A stretch of DNA of 41,566 bases from Marinoscillum furvescens DSM 4134. GTDB lineage: Bacteria > Bacteroidota > Bacteroidia > Cytophagales > Cyclobacteriaceae. The DNA lies in the NCBI RefSeq assembly GCF_003386095.1, contig NZ_QREG01000015.1, positions 1 through 41,566 of the forward strand, written 5' to 3'. Positions 36,821 through 41,566 of the stretch are shown piece after piece. The translations under genes and the position numbers were made by a program. Each line of letters begins with the position of its first letter. Position 1 is the first letter of the stretch. The notes beneath the pieces were generated by a model. The model was not told the DNA's origin. It worked only from the letters and a program-made list of their open reading frames with translations, and did no database searches.

Positions 36821-37370
36821 GGTTAGGTGGCGGTACTCGCAGTTACATTTTATTTCGGTGATATATGAACTGATCTAATGAGGCTGGACGGTAAATATAC
36901 AATTGTGATTGATAAGGTCTAAAGAATAATTAGAATTTTCGATGGATTTGTTGGATTTTAGAAATGTGTGTGATAACGTAATTGAATGGAGAATTGAATA
37001 GGCAATAGGCAAAGAGCAATAGGCAAGACTTAAGACGCGAGACAATAGATCCAATAGGCAATAGGCAAAGAACAATAAGCAAGATTTTAGACACTAGATC
37101 CAATAGGCAGTAAGCAATAGCAGTAGGCAAGATTTTAGATATTAGACTTTACATAATTGGACCAAAGACAATAAGCAAAAGCCAATGGGTAATAAATGGT
37201 CAATCCGAAAACCTGGGGAGTATTGGGAATTCGTTCAATTTGCAAATCAATAAAAACTTGATATGCTGAATCTAACAGTATCATTGTAAATTAATTTTTT
37301 AAACTGGCCTTGAAGGAAATGCGTAAAGAATTCTGATACTGTAGGACGGTTATAAAAACATACTGTTTGA
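36821..37370. repeat. repeat island 3 (clean heptamer register) and plain spacer
   Basis: From 36821 to about 36990 is the AT-rich leader of the FlaA1/CapD-like gene, with no further signals. From about 36995 to 37160 the heptamer quasi-repeat is clearest. From about 37025 on it can be read in steps of seven as AGACTTA, AGACGCG, AGACAAT, AGATCCA, ATAGGCA, ATAGGCA, AAGAACA, ATAAGCA, AGATTTT, AGACACT, AGATCCA, ATAGGCA. From about 37200 to 37370 there is AT-rich sequence with only a 9-bp inverted repeat (ACAGTATCA at 37275-37283, TGATACTGT at 37334-37342). No gene is seen. Confidence 0.75.
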
Positions 37371-37604
37371 AGACCGACAGAGGAGGGCAAGTTTATGTTT
37401 TTCCGGCCTCAATATCAGAATTTAGTCATTTTTTTCACAGCCTTGATTTTTTTGCTTCGTTTTTGGATCAAGCCAAAAATGAAGAGCCCGCCCGGCTAAA
37501 GGGCACAACGAGTAATTCTGACAGAAAAATCGAAGAAAGATGCAATCTCCCTACAGAATTATTGCTTGAGCCACCAAAAAAGGCAACAGTTAGCAAACGA
37601 AGAA
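37371..37604. repeat. 234-bp block (module E), copy 1
   Basis: Recurs at 40423-40656 with three substitutions and no indels. It contains CTTGAT...ATCAAG arms around a T-rich stretch (37442-37473). An open frame through it could encode a short basic peptide. It has no recognisable domain and differs at its ends between the copies, so I treat it as non-coding. It is followed by module F in both places. Confidence 0.9.
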
Positions 37605-37613
37605 GCAGTTATC

Positions 37614-37763
37614 GTGCCTGCTTGCCACGCCGATAGGCGGGCCTGCCGGAGGCATGGTCGAAGGGTAAGACTGCTGGAAGATCCAGTAGGCAGTAGGCAA
37701 AGGGCAGTATGCTCGGCGAAGATAAACCTTGGAGGTTTTCAAAACCTCCAAGGTTTGGTGATG
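37614..37763. repeat. 150-bp block (modules F and C), copy 1
   Basis: Recurs without indels at 38837-38986. It starts with GC-rich sequence (GTGCCTGCTTGCCACGCC) containing AGGCGGGCCTGCC, continues through heptamers and ends in the 33-bp palindrome. GC content is far above the AT-rich neighbours. Confidence 0.88.
37724..37756. repeat. 33-bp odd palindrome (module C)
   Basis: Arms AAACCTTGGAGGTTTT (37724-37739) and AAAACCTCCAAGGTTT (37741-37756) flank a single C. Four more copies occur, at 38947-38979 (degraded), 40376-40408 (centre G), about 40786-40817 and 41407-41439 (centre changed). No T-tract follows, so it is not a classical terminator. Confidence 0.88.
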
Positions 37764-37800
37764 GAGGGATTAACACACCTCTTGCCGGGCGCCCCATGCT

Positions 37801-37854
37801 GGGCGCCTATTGAAGTACGTATAGACACACCCCTTTGTCCCCTCTCAAGAGGGG
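37801..37854 (+). repeat. module D, left direct copy
   Basis: GGGCGCCTATTG leader, ACACACCCCTTTGT and palindrome CCCCTCTCAAGAGGGG (37839-37854). Matches 38501-38556, 40833-40861 and 41455-41485. Confidence 0.88.
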
Positions 37855-38005
37855 AGTTGATTGTGCAAGGTTCGACGATATTGATGGGTTTTGGTATGAA
37901 GAGTGGTGATGAACAATTGGCTATTTCCTCCAGAGCGGATCAATGTCATCTTAATCTAGATTACCTGTAAGCTAGAAGTAAACAAACTAACTATGCACTC
38001 ATGTT

Positions 38006-38036
38006 CCCCTCTTAAGAGGGGCTAGGGGTGTGTTGG
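38006..38036 (-). repeat. module D, inverted copy upstream of the nuclease gene
   Basis: CCCCTCTTAAGAGGGG (38006-38021, a perfect palindrome) followed by CTAGGGGTGTGTTGG. This is the reverse complement of the module D leader ACACACCCCT. It lies 50 nt before the GTG start and, with the copy at 38523-38556, forms terminal inverted repeats around the gene. Confidence 0.85.
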
Positions 38037-38086
38037 CGGTATGAAATAAAACCACTATCTTTCATCAACACTACCCCACTTACCGT

Positions 38087-38470
38087 GTGAGAAGAAAGAT
38101 TATTCCTTACAAACCTCACCTTAAAGAATTGGCCAGGTCGATTCGCAATAACAGCACTAAATCGGAGATCATGCTGTGGAGATACCTGAAGGGGAAGCAG
38201 ATGAAAGGATATGACTTTCATCGACAGAAACCGCTGCTCAATTATATCGCCGATTTTTATTGTGCTGAACTGTCTCTGGTAATAGAACTGGATGGGTACT
38301 CACATACTTTTGAGGAGGTACAAGAAAGGGATCGGATTAAGGAGGAGGAGCTTGCATCAGTTGGGGTAAAGGTTCTTAGGTTTGAGGATAAGGAGGTGTT
38401 TAAGGATATTCGAAATGTCTTGCGGACCATTGAGGGGTATATTGAGGAATATGAACATACACATCATTAG
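38087..38470 (+). CDS. DUF559 PD-(D/E)XK-like endonuclease domain protein
   Basis: 127 aa from a GTG start at 38087, which gives the usual family N-terminus RRKIIPYKPHLKELAR. The single DUF559 domain is related to the Vsr/PD-(D/E)XK nuclease fold. Candidate active-site residues are Glu27 (TKSEIMLW), Gln47 (FHRQKPL), Asp56 (YIADFYC), and Glu67 and Asp69 (LVIELDGYSH). All are kept, so the gene looks intact and active. Helix LASVGVKVLRFED follows as in the family. DUF559 proteins are common in Bacteroidetes and their role is not established. The gene is bounded by inverted palindromes and direct repeats and is the only intact gene within the repeat islands. Confidence 0.88.
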   Translation: MRRKIIPYKPHLKELARSIRNNSTKSEIMLWRYLKGKQMKGYDFHRQKPLLNYIADFYCAELSLVIELDGYSHTFEEVQERDRIKEEELASVGVKVLRFEDKEVFKDIRNVLRTIEGYIEEYEHTHH

Positions 38471-38500
38471 TCGGGCGCACCTGGTCGGGCACCCCTGGCC

Positions 38501-38556
38501 GGGCGCCTATTGCAGGACGTATTAACACACCCCTTTTATTCCCCTCTCAAGAGGGG
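38501..38556 (+). repeat. module D, right direct copy
   Basis: GGGCGCCTATTG leader, AACACACCCCTTTTATT and palindrome CCCCTCTCAAGAGGGG (38541-38556). Just upstream lies GC-rich sequence (CGGGCGCAC, CGGGCACCCC) similar to that before the left copy. Confidence 0.88.
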
Positions 38557-38600
38557 AGTGGGAGCGTAGAAAATAGGTGTTCGCTATAATAGGCAGTAGG

Positions 38601-38734
38601 CAAAGGGTAATAGGCAAGACTTATAGACACTAGACTTTAGACGTTAGACTACCGTGTAAGGGCAATAGGCAAATTTTACGCCCCTGTTGGTCTTGTGACC
38701 AACAGGATGTAATTTCTGGTAGTAACCCAATAGG
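38601..38734. repeat. 134-bp heptamer plus hairpin block, copy 1
   Basis: Recurs at 40957-41090 with a single mismatch and no indels. It contains heptamers, then CCTGTTGGTC-TTGT-GACCAACAGG (38683-38706, perfect 10-bp stem) and the tail ATGTAATTTCTGGTAGT. Confidence 0.92.
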
Positions 38735-38836: not shown

Positions 38837-38986
38837 GTGCCTGCTTGCCACGCCGATAGGCGGGCCTGCCGTAGGCATGGTCGAAGGGTAAGACTGCTGG
38901 AAGATCCAATAGGCAGAGGTCAAAGAGCAGTATGCTCGGCGAAGATAAACCCTGGAGGTTTTCAAAATCTCAAAGGTTTGGTGATG
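38837..38986. repeat. 150-bp block (modules F and C), copy 2
   Basis: Second copy of 37614-37763 at constant offset 1223. The palindrome in this copy (38947-38979) has lost perfect pairing (CTCAAAGG in the right arm). It lies 26 nt before the stop codon end of the transferase gene. The rest of 38471-39011 is heptamer repeat and holds no gene. Confidence 0.88.
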
Positions 38987-39011: not shown

Positions 39012-39989
39012 TTATTTTGATTCGAAAACTTTAAATCGAACTATTTTGATGTAGGCATAAATCAAACTTACTGCTAAAAACAACCCGATCGCGAAAAGCC
39101 AGGAGTTTTGCTGTGTGGTGATGCTCCATAGGATGATGGCATTGATAGCGAGCTGTAGGAAGGCATAGCCCAGACTTACTACCCGGTGGTCGATGCGTTT
39201 TTCGTTGGCCAGGAGCTGGTAAAGATGCAGCCGGTGTGGCTCAAAGATCTTTTCACGCTTAATCAGCCGCTCGGTGATGGTGCCCACAGCATCTACGGCA
39301 TAGATGAGCAAAAACAACAAGTAGCTGATTTCGCCGGTTACGAGCATAAGCTTGATAACCAAATAGCCAAGCAAAAGGGCCAGGCTAATAGCTCCCACAT
39401 CGCCAGCAAAGCAAATGGCTCGCTTGCGGAAATTGAACCAGGAGAATATGACCAGGGCCAGGAGCATAAACCCTAAAAACTCCATAGGGGCAAAAGTGAC
39501 CACCTGGTGGTTGACCCAGCCCAGCGATAGGAGGGTCACGCCTGCATAACACGATGTAATGCCATTGATGCCGTCCATGAAGTTGAAGGCGTTGATCCAG
39601 CCGATCAGACAGATGCCGCCAATGGCCCACAGCCACCACGGCAGCTCAGCACCCAGCTGGATGCCAGCCAGCACCACAGCACCTAAGTGGACGATCATGC
39701 GCAAGCCGGAAGGTAGGGTATACAGGTCGTCCAGAAAGCTGATGAGGGCCAGGGCCAAAAAGCCTGTAAGCAAATACGGTAGGGTGAGGGAGCCACTTTC
39801 GCCAAAAAAGGAGTATCCGGCCCATAGGATGCCAGCCATGACGAAGACGATGCCTCCACCACGCACGGGTTCATAGTCATGAGAGCTCCGGTGGTTGGGC
39901 TTGTCTACAATCTGGTAGTGCCGTGCCAAACGGATAAACAGGTACAAGCTGGCAAGCAGTAGAAGGGCGGCGATGAGGTAGGTAATCAA
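39012..39989 (-). CDS. WecA/MraY-like undecaprenyl-phosphate glycosyl-1-phosphate transferase
   Basis: Glycosyltransferase family 4 integral membrane enzyme that loads the first sugar-1-phosphate onto undecaprenyl phosphate for envelope polysaccharide. I propose TTG at 39989 as start (325 aa). The frame is open to 40217, but the extra 76 codons only translate repeat DNA and no ATG lies between. About ten membrane helices are predicted. Motifs include the PVRGGG loop (41-46), Asp-Asp 87-88 (FLDDLYTLPSG), the NFMDGING motif (136-143) and FAGDVGAISLALLLGYL. The ACTG or C-terminal cytoplasmic loop HRLHLYQLL is typical of this group. The promoter must lie in, or have been replaced by, the adjacent repeat island. 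Confidence 0.9.
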   Translation of the reverse strand: MITYLIAALLLLASLYLFIRLARHYQIVDKPNHRSSHDYEPVRGGGIVFVMAGILWAGYSFFGESGSLTLPYLLTGFLALALISFLDDLYTLPSGLRMIVHLGAVVLAGIQLGAELPWWLWAIGGICLIGWINAFNFMDGINGITSCYAGVTLLSLGWVNHQVVTFAPMEFLGFMLLALVIFSWFNFRKRAICFAGDVGAISLALLLGYLVIKLMLVTGEISYLLFLLIYAVDAVGTITERLIKREKIFEPHRLHLYQLLANEKRIDHRVVSLGYAFLQLAINAIILWSITTQQNSWLFAIGLFLAVSLIYAYIKIVRFKVFESK

Positions 39990-40422
39990 AGTAAGGTTGT
40001 CTTTTAGTAATGAGGCTGCAAAATAAGTGGGTATTGGATAAAAGACAATTGATTCAATAGGCAATAGGCAAGACTTAAGACGCGAGACAATAGACAAAAG
40101 ATATAAGGTGCAATAGGTAAAGAGGAGTAGGCAAATGAGGAAGCAGTCATCGTGAGCCTGTCGAATGATAAGACTGCTGGAAGGTCCAGTATGAAGTAGG
40201 CAAGAGGCAGTAGGCAAAAGCAGTAGGCAAAATTCAATAGGCAGTAGGCAAGATTTTAGACACTAGACGTTAGACTACCGTAAGGGCAATAGGCAAATTT
40301 TCCGCCCCTGTTGGTCTTGTGACCAACAGGATCGATTTCATGGTAATAGGCAAAGAACAGTAGGCAGGCGAAGATAAACCTTGGAGGTTTTGAAAACCTC
40401 CAAGGTTTGGTGCAGGACGTAT
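39990..40422. repeat. repeat island upstream of the transferase gene
   Basis: No separate gene. Heptamers fill most of the stretch, with a GTGAGCCTGTCGAATG-type block at about 40150-40170. A hairpin CCTGTTGGTC-TTGT-GACCAACAGG lies at 40307-40330 and a 33-bp palindrome with centre G at 40376-40408. It also contains the N-terminal open-frame extension of the transferase (to 40217), which translates as repeat. Confidence 0.8.
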
Positions 40423-40426
40423 AGAC
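40293..40426. repeat. 134-bp hairpin plus palindrome block, copy 1
   Basis: Matches 41324-41457 with a handful of substitutions and no indels. It contains the GTTGGTC hairpin, ATCGATTTCATGGTAATAGG, heptamers, the 33-bp palindrome and GCAGGACGTATAGAC. Confidence 0.88.
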
Positions 40427-40656
40427 CGACAAAGGAGGGCAAGTTTATGTTTTTCCGGCCTCAATATCAGAATTTAGTCATTTTCTTCACAGCCTTGATT
40501 TTTTTGCTTCGTTTTTGGATCAAGCCAAAAATGAAGAGCCCGCCCGGCTAAAGGGCACAACGAGTAATTCTGACAGAAAAATCGAAGAAAGATGCAATCT
40601 CCCTACAGAATTATTGCTTGAGCCACCAAAAAAGGCAATAGTTAGCAAACGAAGAA
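40423..40656. repeat. 234-bp block (module E), copy 2
   Basis: Second copy of 37371-37604 at offset 3052, with three substitutions (near its start, inside the T-run, and near its end). Followed by a GC-rich F-like block (40665-40730) and a palindrome, the same order as at copy 1. Confidence 0.9.
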
Positions 40657-40785
40657 AGAATCAACGTGTCTACCCGCCGAAGGAGGGCTTGCCTCGCCTT
40701 TGGCGGGCCTGCCGTAGGCATGGTCGAATGATAAGACACTTTTGAGAAAATCAACCGGCAAAGAGCAAAAGGCAAAGCGGAGATA

Positions 40786-40861
40786 GACCCTGGAGGTTTT
40801 CAAAACCTCCAAGGTTTGGTGCAGGACGTATAGACACACCCCTAACCCCTCTCAAGAGGGG
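40786..40861. repeat. module C and single module D: empty-site arrangement
   Basis: The palindrome copy (about 40786-40817) is followed by GCAGGACGTATAGACACACC and one CCCCTCTCAAGAGGGG (40846-40861). Directly after it comes GGGAGCGTAGAAAATAGG, the same sequence that follows the right end of the DUF559 cassette at 38561. No nuclease gene is present. Confidence 0.85.
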
Positions 40862-40956
40862 AATGGGAGCGTAGAAAATAGGCGCTCGATATAATATGCA
40901 ATAAGAGCAATAGGCAAGACTTAGGACGCGAGACAATAGATCCAATAGGCAATAGG

Positions 40957-41090
40957 CAAAGGGTAATAGGCAAGACTTATAGACACTAGACTTTAGACGT
41001 TAGACTACCGTGTAAGGGCAATAGGCAAATTTTACGCCCCTGTTGGTCTTGTGACCAACAGGATGTAATTTCTGGTAGTTACCCAATAGG
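40957..41090. repeat. 134-bp heptamer plus hairpin block, copy 2
   Basis: Copy of 38601-38734; one A/T difference at 41080. The hairpin stem lies at 41039-41062. Confidence 0.92.
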
Positions 41091-41323
41091 TAATAGGCAA
41101 TAGGCAGATTAGATTTTAGATAAAAGACATTAGACCAAAGAAAATAGGTAAATGGAGAAGCAGTCATCGTGCCCGCCTGCCGGAGTTTACGCAGGCATGG
41201 TCGGTAGATTTTATCAAGCTGAGCATGTCGAAGTTTAAGACAAAATCTACTAGAATAGATAGCAAGTAAGCAAAATTCAATAGACAGTAGGCAAGACTTT
41301 AGATATTAGACCAAAGACAGTAA
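41091..41323. repeat. heptamer and GC-rich repeat stretch
   Basis: No gene. It contains heptamers (ATAGGCA, AGACATT-like), a GC-rich block GCCCGCCTGCCGGAGTTTAC (41171-41190) and the AAGCTGAGCATGTCGAAG motif (41217-41234) common in F-type blocks. Confidence 0.75.
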
Positions 41324-41457
41324 GCAAATTTTCCGCCCCTGTTGGTCTTGTGATCAACAGGATCGATTTCATGGTAATAGGCAAAGAACAGTAGGCAGGC
41401 GGAGATAAACCCTGGAGGTTTTGTAAACCTCCAAGGTTTGGTGCAGGACGTATAGAC
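41324..41457. repeat. 134-bp hairpin plus palindrome block, copy 2
   Basis: Copy of 40293-40426 at offset 1031. Here the hairpin right arm reads GATCAACAGG (one mismatch in the stem), and the palindrome centre is changed (GGTTTTGTAAACC). Confidence 0.88.
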
Positions 41458-41566
41458 ACACCCCTTTGTCCCCTCTCAAGAGGGGAGTTGATTGTGCATG
41501 GTTTGCCGGTATTGATGAATTTTGGTGTGCTGAGTGTTGATGAATAATTGACAATATCCTCCAGAG
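41448..41566. repeat. left part of a second cassette at the window edge
   Basis: 119 bp matching 37817-37935 without indels. The first 50 bp, which include palindrome 41470-41485, are identical; the next 69 bp differ by roughly a quarter. The window ends inside it, so its right part is unseen. Confidence 0.82.

Follow-up and report, generated by a model that had tools for sequence, protein, structure and literature searches.

A possible selfish element formed by DUF559 nuclease genes and G/C-rich triplex palindromes

Introduction

The window (the whole stretch of 41,566 nucleotides analysed here, bases 1-41566 of contig C15) belongs to a genome of 5.96 Mb in 62 contigs and carries, within islands of repeats, a gene of the DUF559 nuclease family placed between inverted palindromes. 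What holds such a gene and such palindromes together, and does the pair move? An earlier note on this DNA had proposed that the protein recognises the palindrome and that both behave as a small mobile or homing-like system. The same pair is found in many bacteria, even within essential genes, and therefore resembles an unrecognised selfish element. The reading that we hold to be somewhat probable is that DUF559 genes and the G/C-rich triplex palindromes (PIT/BoxC/TM) are two parts of one element, which would work like REP/RAYT but be no member of that system. Among the open-licence papers listed, judged by title and abstract opening, none links DUF559 to these repeats.

The locus in the window

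The features of the locus are the following, in window coordinates.

38087..38470, + strand: DUF559 (PF04480) PD-(D/E)XK-type nuclease gene, 127 amino acids, GTG start, from the ORF call, Pfam and the structure model
38006..38033, + strand: left triplex-motif unit, with hairpin CCCCTCT-TA-AGAGGGG (38006-38021), loop CTA and third strand GGGGTGTGT (38025-38033) toward the gene
38525..38556, - strand: right triplex-motif unit, inverted, with third strand ACACACCCC (38525-38533) toward the gene and hairpin CCCCTCTCAAGAGGGG (38541-38556)
37825..37854, - strand: outer triplex-motif unit, first of a hairpin-spacer-hairpin pair, with third strand 37825-37833 and hairpin 37839-37854
37855..38005, no strand: spacer between the paired palindromes, common to the gene-less copies
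38022..38556, no strand: 535-bp unit, extra in the filled state relative to the gene-less copies C15:41661-41900 and 42190-42430
40834..40861, - strand: solo gene-less triplex-motif unit, loop TAA/TTA
41456..41485, - strand: solo triplex-motif unit, opening another gene-less stretch that runs into an N run past the window

The hairpin occurs at five window sites and in none of 100 dinucleotide-preserving shuffles. It has the form CCCCTCTTAAGAGGGG once (38006-38021) and the form CCCCTCTCAAGAGGGG at 37839-37854, 38541-38556, 40846-40861 and 41470-41485, and each of the five is adjoined by ACACACCCC or its complement. This block points inward on both sides of the DUF559 gene, so that the flanks are inverted. 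The inverted palindromes described in the earlier note are thus real, as units 38006-38033 and 38525-38556, and so are the direct repeats that it placed on either side of the gene, found near 37781-37854 and 38481-38556.

The islands hold further repeat families. A palindrome of 31-33 bp like AAACCTTGGAGGTTTTCAAAACCTCCAAGGTTT is present at 37724-37756, 38947-38979, 40376-40408, 40787-40817 and 41407-41439; further copies are spread over many other contigs, and the congener G003 has some as well. An imperfect 24-bp palindrome, CCTGTTGGTCTTGTGACCAACAGG, lies inside longer shared modules at 38683-38706, 40307-40330, 41039-41062 and 41338-41361, and much of the islands (36990-37180 and 40040-41330) consists of short A/G-rich repeats, among them AATAGGCAATAGGCAA and AGACATTAGAC. 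An intact wecA-like gene (39012-40025) sits between two islands, outside both.

The DUF559 protein

Pfam assigns the window protein to PF04480 at E 3.9e-30 (104.4 bits, the curated cut-off being 20.6), with DUF2726, MTES_1575 and a weak DUF3964 as other matches; neither PF01797 (Y1/HUH transposase) nor PF03852 (Vsr) is among them, and a family search found no PF03852 in the window genome. The residues that are invariant in two alignments of relatives (T24, E27, W31, Q47, E67, G70, H73, D82 and R98) are all kept, as is D56, invariant in one alignment and nearly so in the other. The gene is thus intact with its acidic, catalytic-type residues retained, as the earlier note had it. A congener carries a DUF559 gene (L025) with ATG at the position of the GTG start.

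The AlphaFold2 model, built with 62 sequences, reaches a pLDDT of 92.8. Its nearest solved structure is 3hrl, a DUF559 crystal structure (Foldseek E 4e-7), followed by the catalytic domain of I-Bth0305I, 3r3p (Foldseek E 1.5e-4, TM 0.80 on the target; profile E 8.9e-6), a homing endonuclease of the EDxHD/Vsr-like family. The model thus points to a Vsr-like PD-(D/E)XK fold and to a predicted nuclease. DUF559 nucleases are under purifying selection in close pairs: dN/dS ranges from 0.03 to 0.21 in 10 of 12 chosen pairs, some of them with high dS, the other two giving no ratio.

Filled and gene-less copies in the same genome

The earlier note had pointed to a gene-less site inside the window. The repeat modules concerned are real (37371-37626 and 40423-40678, 95% identical; 38541-38598 and 40846-40903, 90%), but the cleanest gene-less counterparts lie just past the window, at C15:41661-41900 and 42190-42430. 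Both read hairpin, spacer of about 140 nt, hairpin and then AGGAGGAGCGTAGAAAATAGG. The filled copy reads hairpin, a diverged version of the spacer, hairpin, 535 extra bases and then AGTGGGAGCGTAGAAAATAGG, the 535-bp unit starting directly after one hairpin and ending with another.

A second DUF559 module lies at C15:42996-43310 (L010). Its protein is 92% identical to that of the window and carries Glu in place of the conserved D56, so that this copy may be impaired. Tandem-like repeats of type CAATGCTTAGCAAGGACC (L012 7170-7540, C15:43669-44039) adjoin the module. The third copy, at C9:53874, has no hairpin of this kind. Window-type hairpins, searched with the pattern CCCCTCTN{1,4}AGAGGGG, occur at 12 sites of the genome, all on C15, and window-type palindromes are therefore local in this genome.

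Recombination within the repeat array could yield the filled and empty pattern of the window, and the comparison was therefore extended to other genomes. In the search for an orthologous filled or empty site, congeners showed hardly any DNA-level match to the genes flanking the window locus. Locus L041 was compared with the genus in the same way: one congener matches it rightward from the upstream hairpin and not leftward, which places a breakpoint at the hairpin, and this congener was rejected as a clean empty site.

A hairpin bracket specific to DUF559 genes

A scan of many phyla with seven DUF559 proteins matched at least 586 stretches, the best 80 of which were taken, a choice biased to the KFRRQHP and DFYC motifs; flanks could be judged at 72 loci, the other 8 lying too near contig ends. 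A hairpin was counted when a perfect pyrimidine-loop-purine structure with a stem of at least 7 lay at most 400 bp from the gene. Such hairpins stand on both sides of the gene at 42 of the 72 loci (best 80 of at least 586), on one side at 15 and on neither at 15, as against 0 and 17 of 1036 control intervals for both sides and one side. Hairpins of opposite polarity are found at these 72 loci (best 80 of at least 586) on both sides in no case and on one side in two. An inverted-repeat score of at least 15 within 350-bp flanks is reached at 44/72 DUF559 loci (best 80 of at least 586) and at 3/1038 control intervals in the same loci. A separate set of 79 loci from the genus and phylum of the window gives 40 with hairpins on both sides, 30 with one and 9 with none. 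The possibility that DUF559 genes lie in fixed places devoid of palindromes, under which the earlier note would fall, thus fails as a general rule (42/72 among the best 80 of at least 586, and 40/79). Loci without hairpins include the third copy of the window genome and five HisF fusions of Pedobacter.

The bracketed loci are widely spread. Among the best 80 of at least 586, both-side loci amount to 19/38 in Bacteroidota and 9/15 in Pseudomonadota and occur also in Cyanobacteriota, Chloroflexota and Elusimicrobiota; one more belongs to a record titled Methanophagales archaeon, a MAG in which a binning error is possible. At least one both-side locus is present in 35 of 55 labels (the genus where known, otherwise the family or title), the locus counts including related species such as several of Pedobacter and Acinetobacter. 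The distribution of DUF559 itself is sporadic, with matches in 78 of 148 genomes of the window's phylum and several lineages per genome. The upstream flanks of DUF559 seem, by eye, to be common to several Acinetobacter species.

None of 28 Vsr loci (30 fetched, 2 too short) has flanking hairpins, and the bracket as a general property of the Vsr-like fold was therefore rejected. Likewise, a hairpin is found on neither side of 25 Y1_Tnp loci in relatives (30 fetched, 5 too short, weak matches included), and a RAYT as mobiliser was therefore rejected. Rfam reports no known RNA, group I and II introns included, in five loci (L012, L088, L254, L143 and L163). An anti-phage system was also considered and set aside: PADLOC matches are weak only, one of them being to a homing endonuclease model (E 6.8e-4).

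The palindromes as intrastrand triplex motifs

The G-rich tail beside the hairpin mirrors its purine arm, which is the rule of an intrastrand triplex. A match of at least 0.85 is obtained for 83 of 99 nearest hairpins; in 500 runs of each control the count never exceeded 10 with shuffled flanks or 64 with arms swapped between loci, which shows that arm and tail co-vary. Tail orientation could be called clearly on both sides at 29 loci; relative to the gene it is inverted at 24 of them (13 outward, 11 inward) and direct at 5. The window units fit the same design by inspection. Judged by their sequence, most palindromes flanking DUF559 genes are repeats of the G/C-rich intrastrand triplex motif (PIT/BoxC/TM) and predicted triplex formers. 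Stretches of the SPSPQPSP type at the ends of DUF559 proteins are explained as translated palindromes.

The E. coli motif is reported to form a triplex in vitro, and Holder et al. 2015 (PMC4666352) found nothing in favour of a stable one in vivo. The same paper ties triplex motifs to genomic instability and reports that no mobility activity was found near the repeats; its text contains no word beginning with nuclease, endonuclease or DUF.

Palindrome type and nuclease lineage

The similarity of DUF559 proteins correlates with that of their palindrome arms over 100 loci (rho 0.416, with 0/2000 permutations as high), taxonomy being uncontrolled and at least one locus (G081, identical to L169) entered twice. 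Within genomes the correlation is weak, at 0.275 over 14 genomes and 86 pairs (179/5000 permutations as high, p about 0.04). A DUF559 tree of 157 proteins and 107 columns, made after 2 of 159 rows whose matched frame contains a stop codon had been removed, is poorly resolved, and palindrome types cluster on it: the window's ACAC type requires 6 changes against 13.6 when shuffled, and the TCTCC type 23 against 51.7, none of 500 shuffles being as low in either case. Three families are represented in one main clade of 11 (9 ACAC, 2 hairpin-less; SH-aLRT 93), outside which 5 of the 14 ACAC rows fall. Genome G115 has three DUF559 groups, with ACAC, TCTCC and other palindrome types, respectively. 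Related DUF559 proteins thus tend to have the same type of palindrome.

Copy numbers were counted in a draw of 148 genomes minus the window genome; they are raw and uncorrected for kinship between genomes. Among 62 genomes with strong DUF559 matches, 25 have at least 3 hairpins of the CCTCTCC type; so do 1 of the 15 whose matches are all weak and 6 of the 70 that have none. Window-type hairpins reach at least 3 copies in 7/8 genomes with the window's DUF559 subfamily (cut at 130 bits, the analyst's choice), in 9/49 with other DUF559 and in 1/90 with none. The prospect that palindromes are equally frequent where DUF559 is lacking, which would also have told against the earlier note, therefore fails, with kinship uncorrected in these numbers. 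The claim of that note that the protein recognises its palindrome is addressed indirectly: clustering of types on the tree and, weakly, the correlation within genomes suggest that each DUF559 protein may recognise its own palindrome.

DUF559 in frame inside core genes

In 32 of the 80 loci (best 80 of at least 586), DUF559 lies in an open frame of more than 230 amino acids; these frames were selected by length, so that out-of-frame insertions would escape. In 28 of these 32, Pfam also recognises a host domain in that frame, the exceptions being L125, L169, L195 and L201. The hosts are LeuRS (three), ValRS, MnmE, MetH, HrpA, PriA, RimM, HemD, dihydroorotate dehydrogenase, an epimerase, HisF (five), ten restriction-modification proteins and one DUF1156 protein. 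DUF559 is terminal, not internal, in some of them, namely RimM, HemD, HisF and dihydroorotate dehydrogenase. RecG, PheT, a second MetH and two more LeuRS are added by loci outside the many-phyla set. Hairpins could be judged at 27 of the 28 host-domain loci and stand on both sides at 18, on one at 3 and on none at 6, five of these six being the HisF fusions. Pfam results for 10 DUF559-carrying proteins contain no splicing domain.

The LeuRS gene occurs in several states. The only LeuRS found in G004, a member of the window's genus, holds DUF559 with palindromes at residues ~295-457, and the LeuRS of all five G004 congeners is empty there, both sides being matched at 78-92% identity and separated by no more than a few codons. 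Parsimony argues for a gain of the insert in G004. No target-site duplication is seen at this LeuRS site, the junction being blurred by 8-22% divergence. Other states are found among the LeuRS genes of 16 chosen genomes. In G200, LeuRS has a palindrome-only insert at the G004 site and palindromes with DUF559 at a second site; in G198, it has palindrome-type peptides and a hairpin, DUF559 being absent. The LeuRS of G028 (L253) retains a decayed in-frame DUF559 with no hairpins, in which VVEIKG replaces the usual E-x-D-G motif, and by these traits the insert appears to be a fossil. One further LeuRS frame (L197) has two DUF559 stretches.

ycjD of E. coli and the Neisseria gene

In E. coli the DUF559 gene is ycjD, which lies between sapF and fabI; DUF559 is its annotation, and it has a match to NCBIfam NF007294. 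PF04480 was not reported in E. coli among the 14 control genomes of the family search, despite ycjD. A paper of 2005 (PMC1189080) already listed YcjD among the known PD-(D/E)XK proteins. With at least 80% of the query covered, ycjD is present in 3364 of 5426 complete E. coli genomes, and sapF is its neighbour in 16/16 ycjD-bearing rows of a listing spread over strains. The triplex-type repeat stands on the downstream side only. In TOP10 (K-12), the protein ends in ...RRSPSP and CCCCTCGCCCCTCTGGGGAGAGGGTTAGGGTGAGGGG follows ~170 bp downstream, no other hairpin of this kind being present in the 8.7-kb stretch; in strain KE47, the ycjD end runs into CACCCTCACCCCAACCCTCTCCC. A 51-bp query around the TOP10 repeat is matched in 5375/5426 E. 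coli genomes, at a median of 18 places per genome. Set against the 3364/5426 genomes with ycjD, and with the repeat on one side of ycjD only, this count implies that the repeats persist without the gene.

The two ycjD-less strains inspected have an efflux operon beside sapF and no such hairpin. They were rejected as clean empty alleles, since the operon occupies the site. At the sapF-fabI site (L330, L331 and L332), ycjD and this operon are alternatives in the E. coli strains inspected; the operon at sapF had been reported earlier (PMC12817139). In N. gonorrhoeae, similar units stand, as judged by eye, to either side of the gene whose product matches 3hrl, in direct orientation.

Discussion

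The observations above would fit an element which in its full form consists of a PD-(D/E)XK nuclease gene of Vsr/homing type with a palindrome at either end, usually inverted; solo or paired palindromes would be its gene-less derivatives. The nuclease would recognise the extruded hairpin or triplex of its own palindrome type and cut there, and host repair would then copy or re-join palindrome-bounded DNA at the cut site or at other palindromes. PD-(D/E)XK enzymes hydrolyse DNA only and perform no strand transfer by themselves, unlike HUH enzymes, and joining and new sites would therefore depend on the host. The gene would thereby spread between palindromes and leave solo copies behind, and in essential genes only frame-keeping insertions would survive.

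As a serious yet unlikely alternative, DUF559 may be a Vsr-like repair or housekeeping nuclease, the fragile palindromes spreading otherwise and DUF559 gathering beside them or acting on them. The one functional report found on a DUF559 protein, VsrA of Caulobacter, ties it to a cytosine methylase, mismatch repair and the SOS response (PMC12907096), triplex motifs are tied to instability (PMC4666352), and some DUF559 copies lack palindromes; but the bracket is specific (0/28 true Vsr loci, 0/1036 control intervals), the palindrome type clusters with nuclease lineage, and gene and palindromes occur together inside LeuRS, ValRS, MnmE and others.

It is distinctly unlikely that DUF559 is a domesticated device which resolves or polices hairpins at replication forks, with the adjoining palindromes as its regulatory or target site. 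Many unrelated host genes, the sporadic spread (78/148 phylum genomes), several lineages per genome and the decayed copy in the G028 LeuRS speak against such a device, despite the strong purifying selection in close pairs, the upstream flanks seemingly common by eye to several Acinetobacter species, and a ycjD present in 3364/5426 E. coli and beside sapF in 16/16 carrying rows.

That the filled and empty pattern of the window reflects segmental duplication and recombination in a repeat array, with no event specific to an element, is very improbable. Modules of several repeat families are indeed shuffled through C15:37-44 kb, and the two filled copies are alike on the left flank and different on the right; yet the breakpoints fall at hairpins, and other genomes show the bracket again at unrelated places. 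Scarcely credible, finally, is a REP-associated tyrosine (Y1/HUH) transposase that mobilises the palindromes with DUF559 as cargo, for although the architecture resembles REP-RAYT units (PMC2817692) and Y1_Tnp matches exist in 19 of 24 genomes searched, 0/25 Y1_Tnp loci have a hairpin on either side, 8 of these 25 having inverted repeats of their own.

A selfish element made of nuclease gene and palindromes is thus the reading retained. Of the mobile or homing-like system that the earlier note had envisaged, the fold near I-Bth0305I and the in-frame filled and empty sites argue in favour, but the pattern at the window locus could also arise by ordinary repeat recombination. Its parallel with RAYT and REP stands as far as a gene between inverted palindromes that are also dispersed alone; it stops at the enzyme, since no RAYT-type gene tested has these palindromes. 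A bolder proposal, to which we give slightly less than an even chance, is a pan-bacterial class of mobile elements in which a stand-alone PD-(D/E)XK nuclease recognises triplex-forming palindromes and spreads along with them, in-frame inserts in essential genes being kept translated and unspliced; the BoxC/PIT/TM repeats of E. coli would be non-autonomous progeny and YcjD their enzyme. This offers a function hypothesis for DUF559, YcjD of E. coli included, and core-enzyme genes (LeuRS, ValRS, MnmE and MetH) are able to carry a nuclease domain in frame.

Comparison with known systems

The palindromic elements of Rickettsia are translated in frame within protein genes and in this resemble the DUF559 case; to our knowledge, they have no associated nuclease. 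I-Bth0305I (PDB 3r3p) provides the closest solved fold outside DUF559 and shares the logic of a selfish nuclease aimed at conserved genes; it differs in that no intron or intein is found around DUF559 (Rfam matches none of 5 loci, and Pfam shows no splicing domain in any of 10 proteins).

The triplex motif (PIT/BoxC/TMECO) of E. coli (PMC4666352) has the same pyrimidine-purine hairpin with a G-rich third strand, many dispersed copies and inverted pairs. Its TTA and CCG loops, described for PIT/TM in that paper, recur here in the window solo unit (TTA, G strand) and in L184 (CCG). The repeats of PMC4666352 are orphan and intergenic in E. coli, whereas those described here flank a nuclease gene on both sides and are also found in frame within genes. 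The E. coli repeats have been known for a long time, and Holder et al. 2015 (PMC4666352) found no mobility activity near them; a DUF559 nuclease would be a candidate for their enzyme.

With REP-RAYT (PMC2817692) are shared the enzyme gene between inverted palindromes, the gene-less copies and pairs, and a palindrome type tied to enzyme lineage. No head of the GTAG type is seen at the window hairpins. The enzyme here is PD-(D/E)XK-like and not HUH/Y1, and a third strand and in-frame coding insertions set the two systems further apart. If the proposed element is real, REP-like palindromes would spread by a second, chemically different route beside that of HUH/RAYT.
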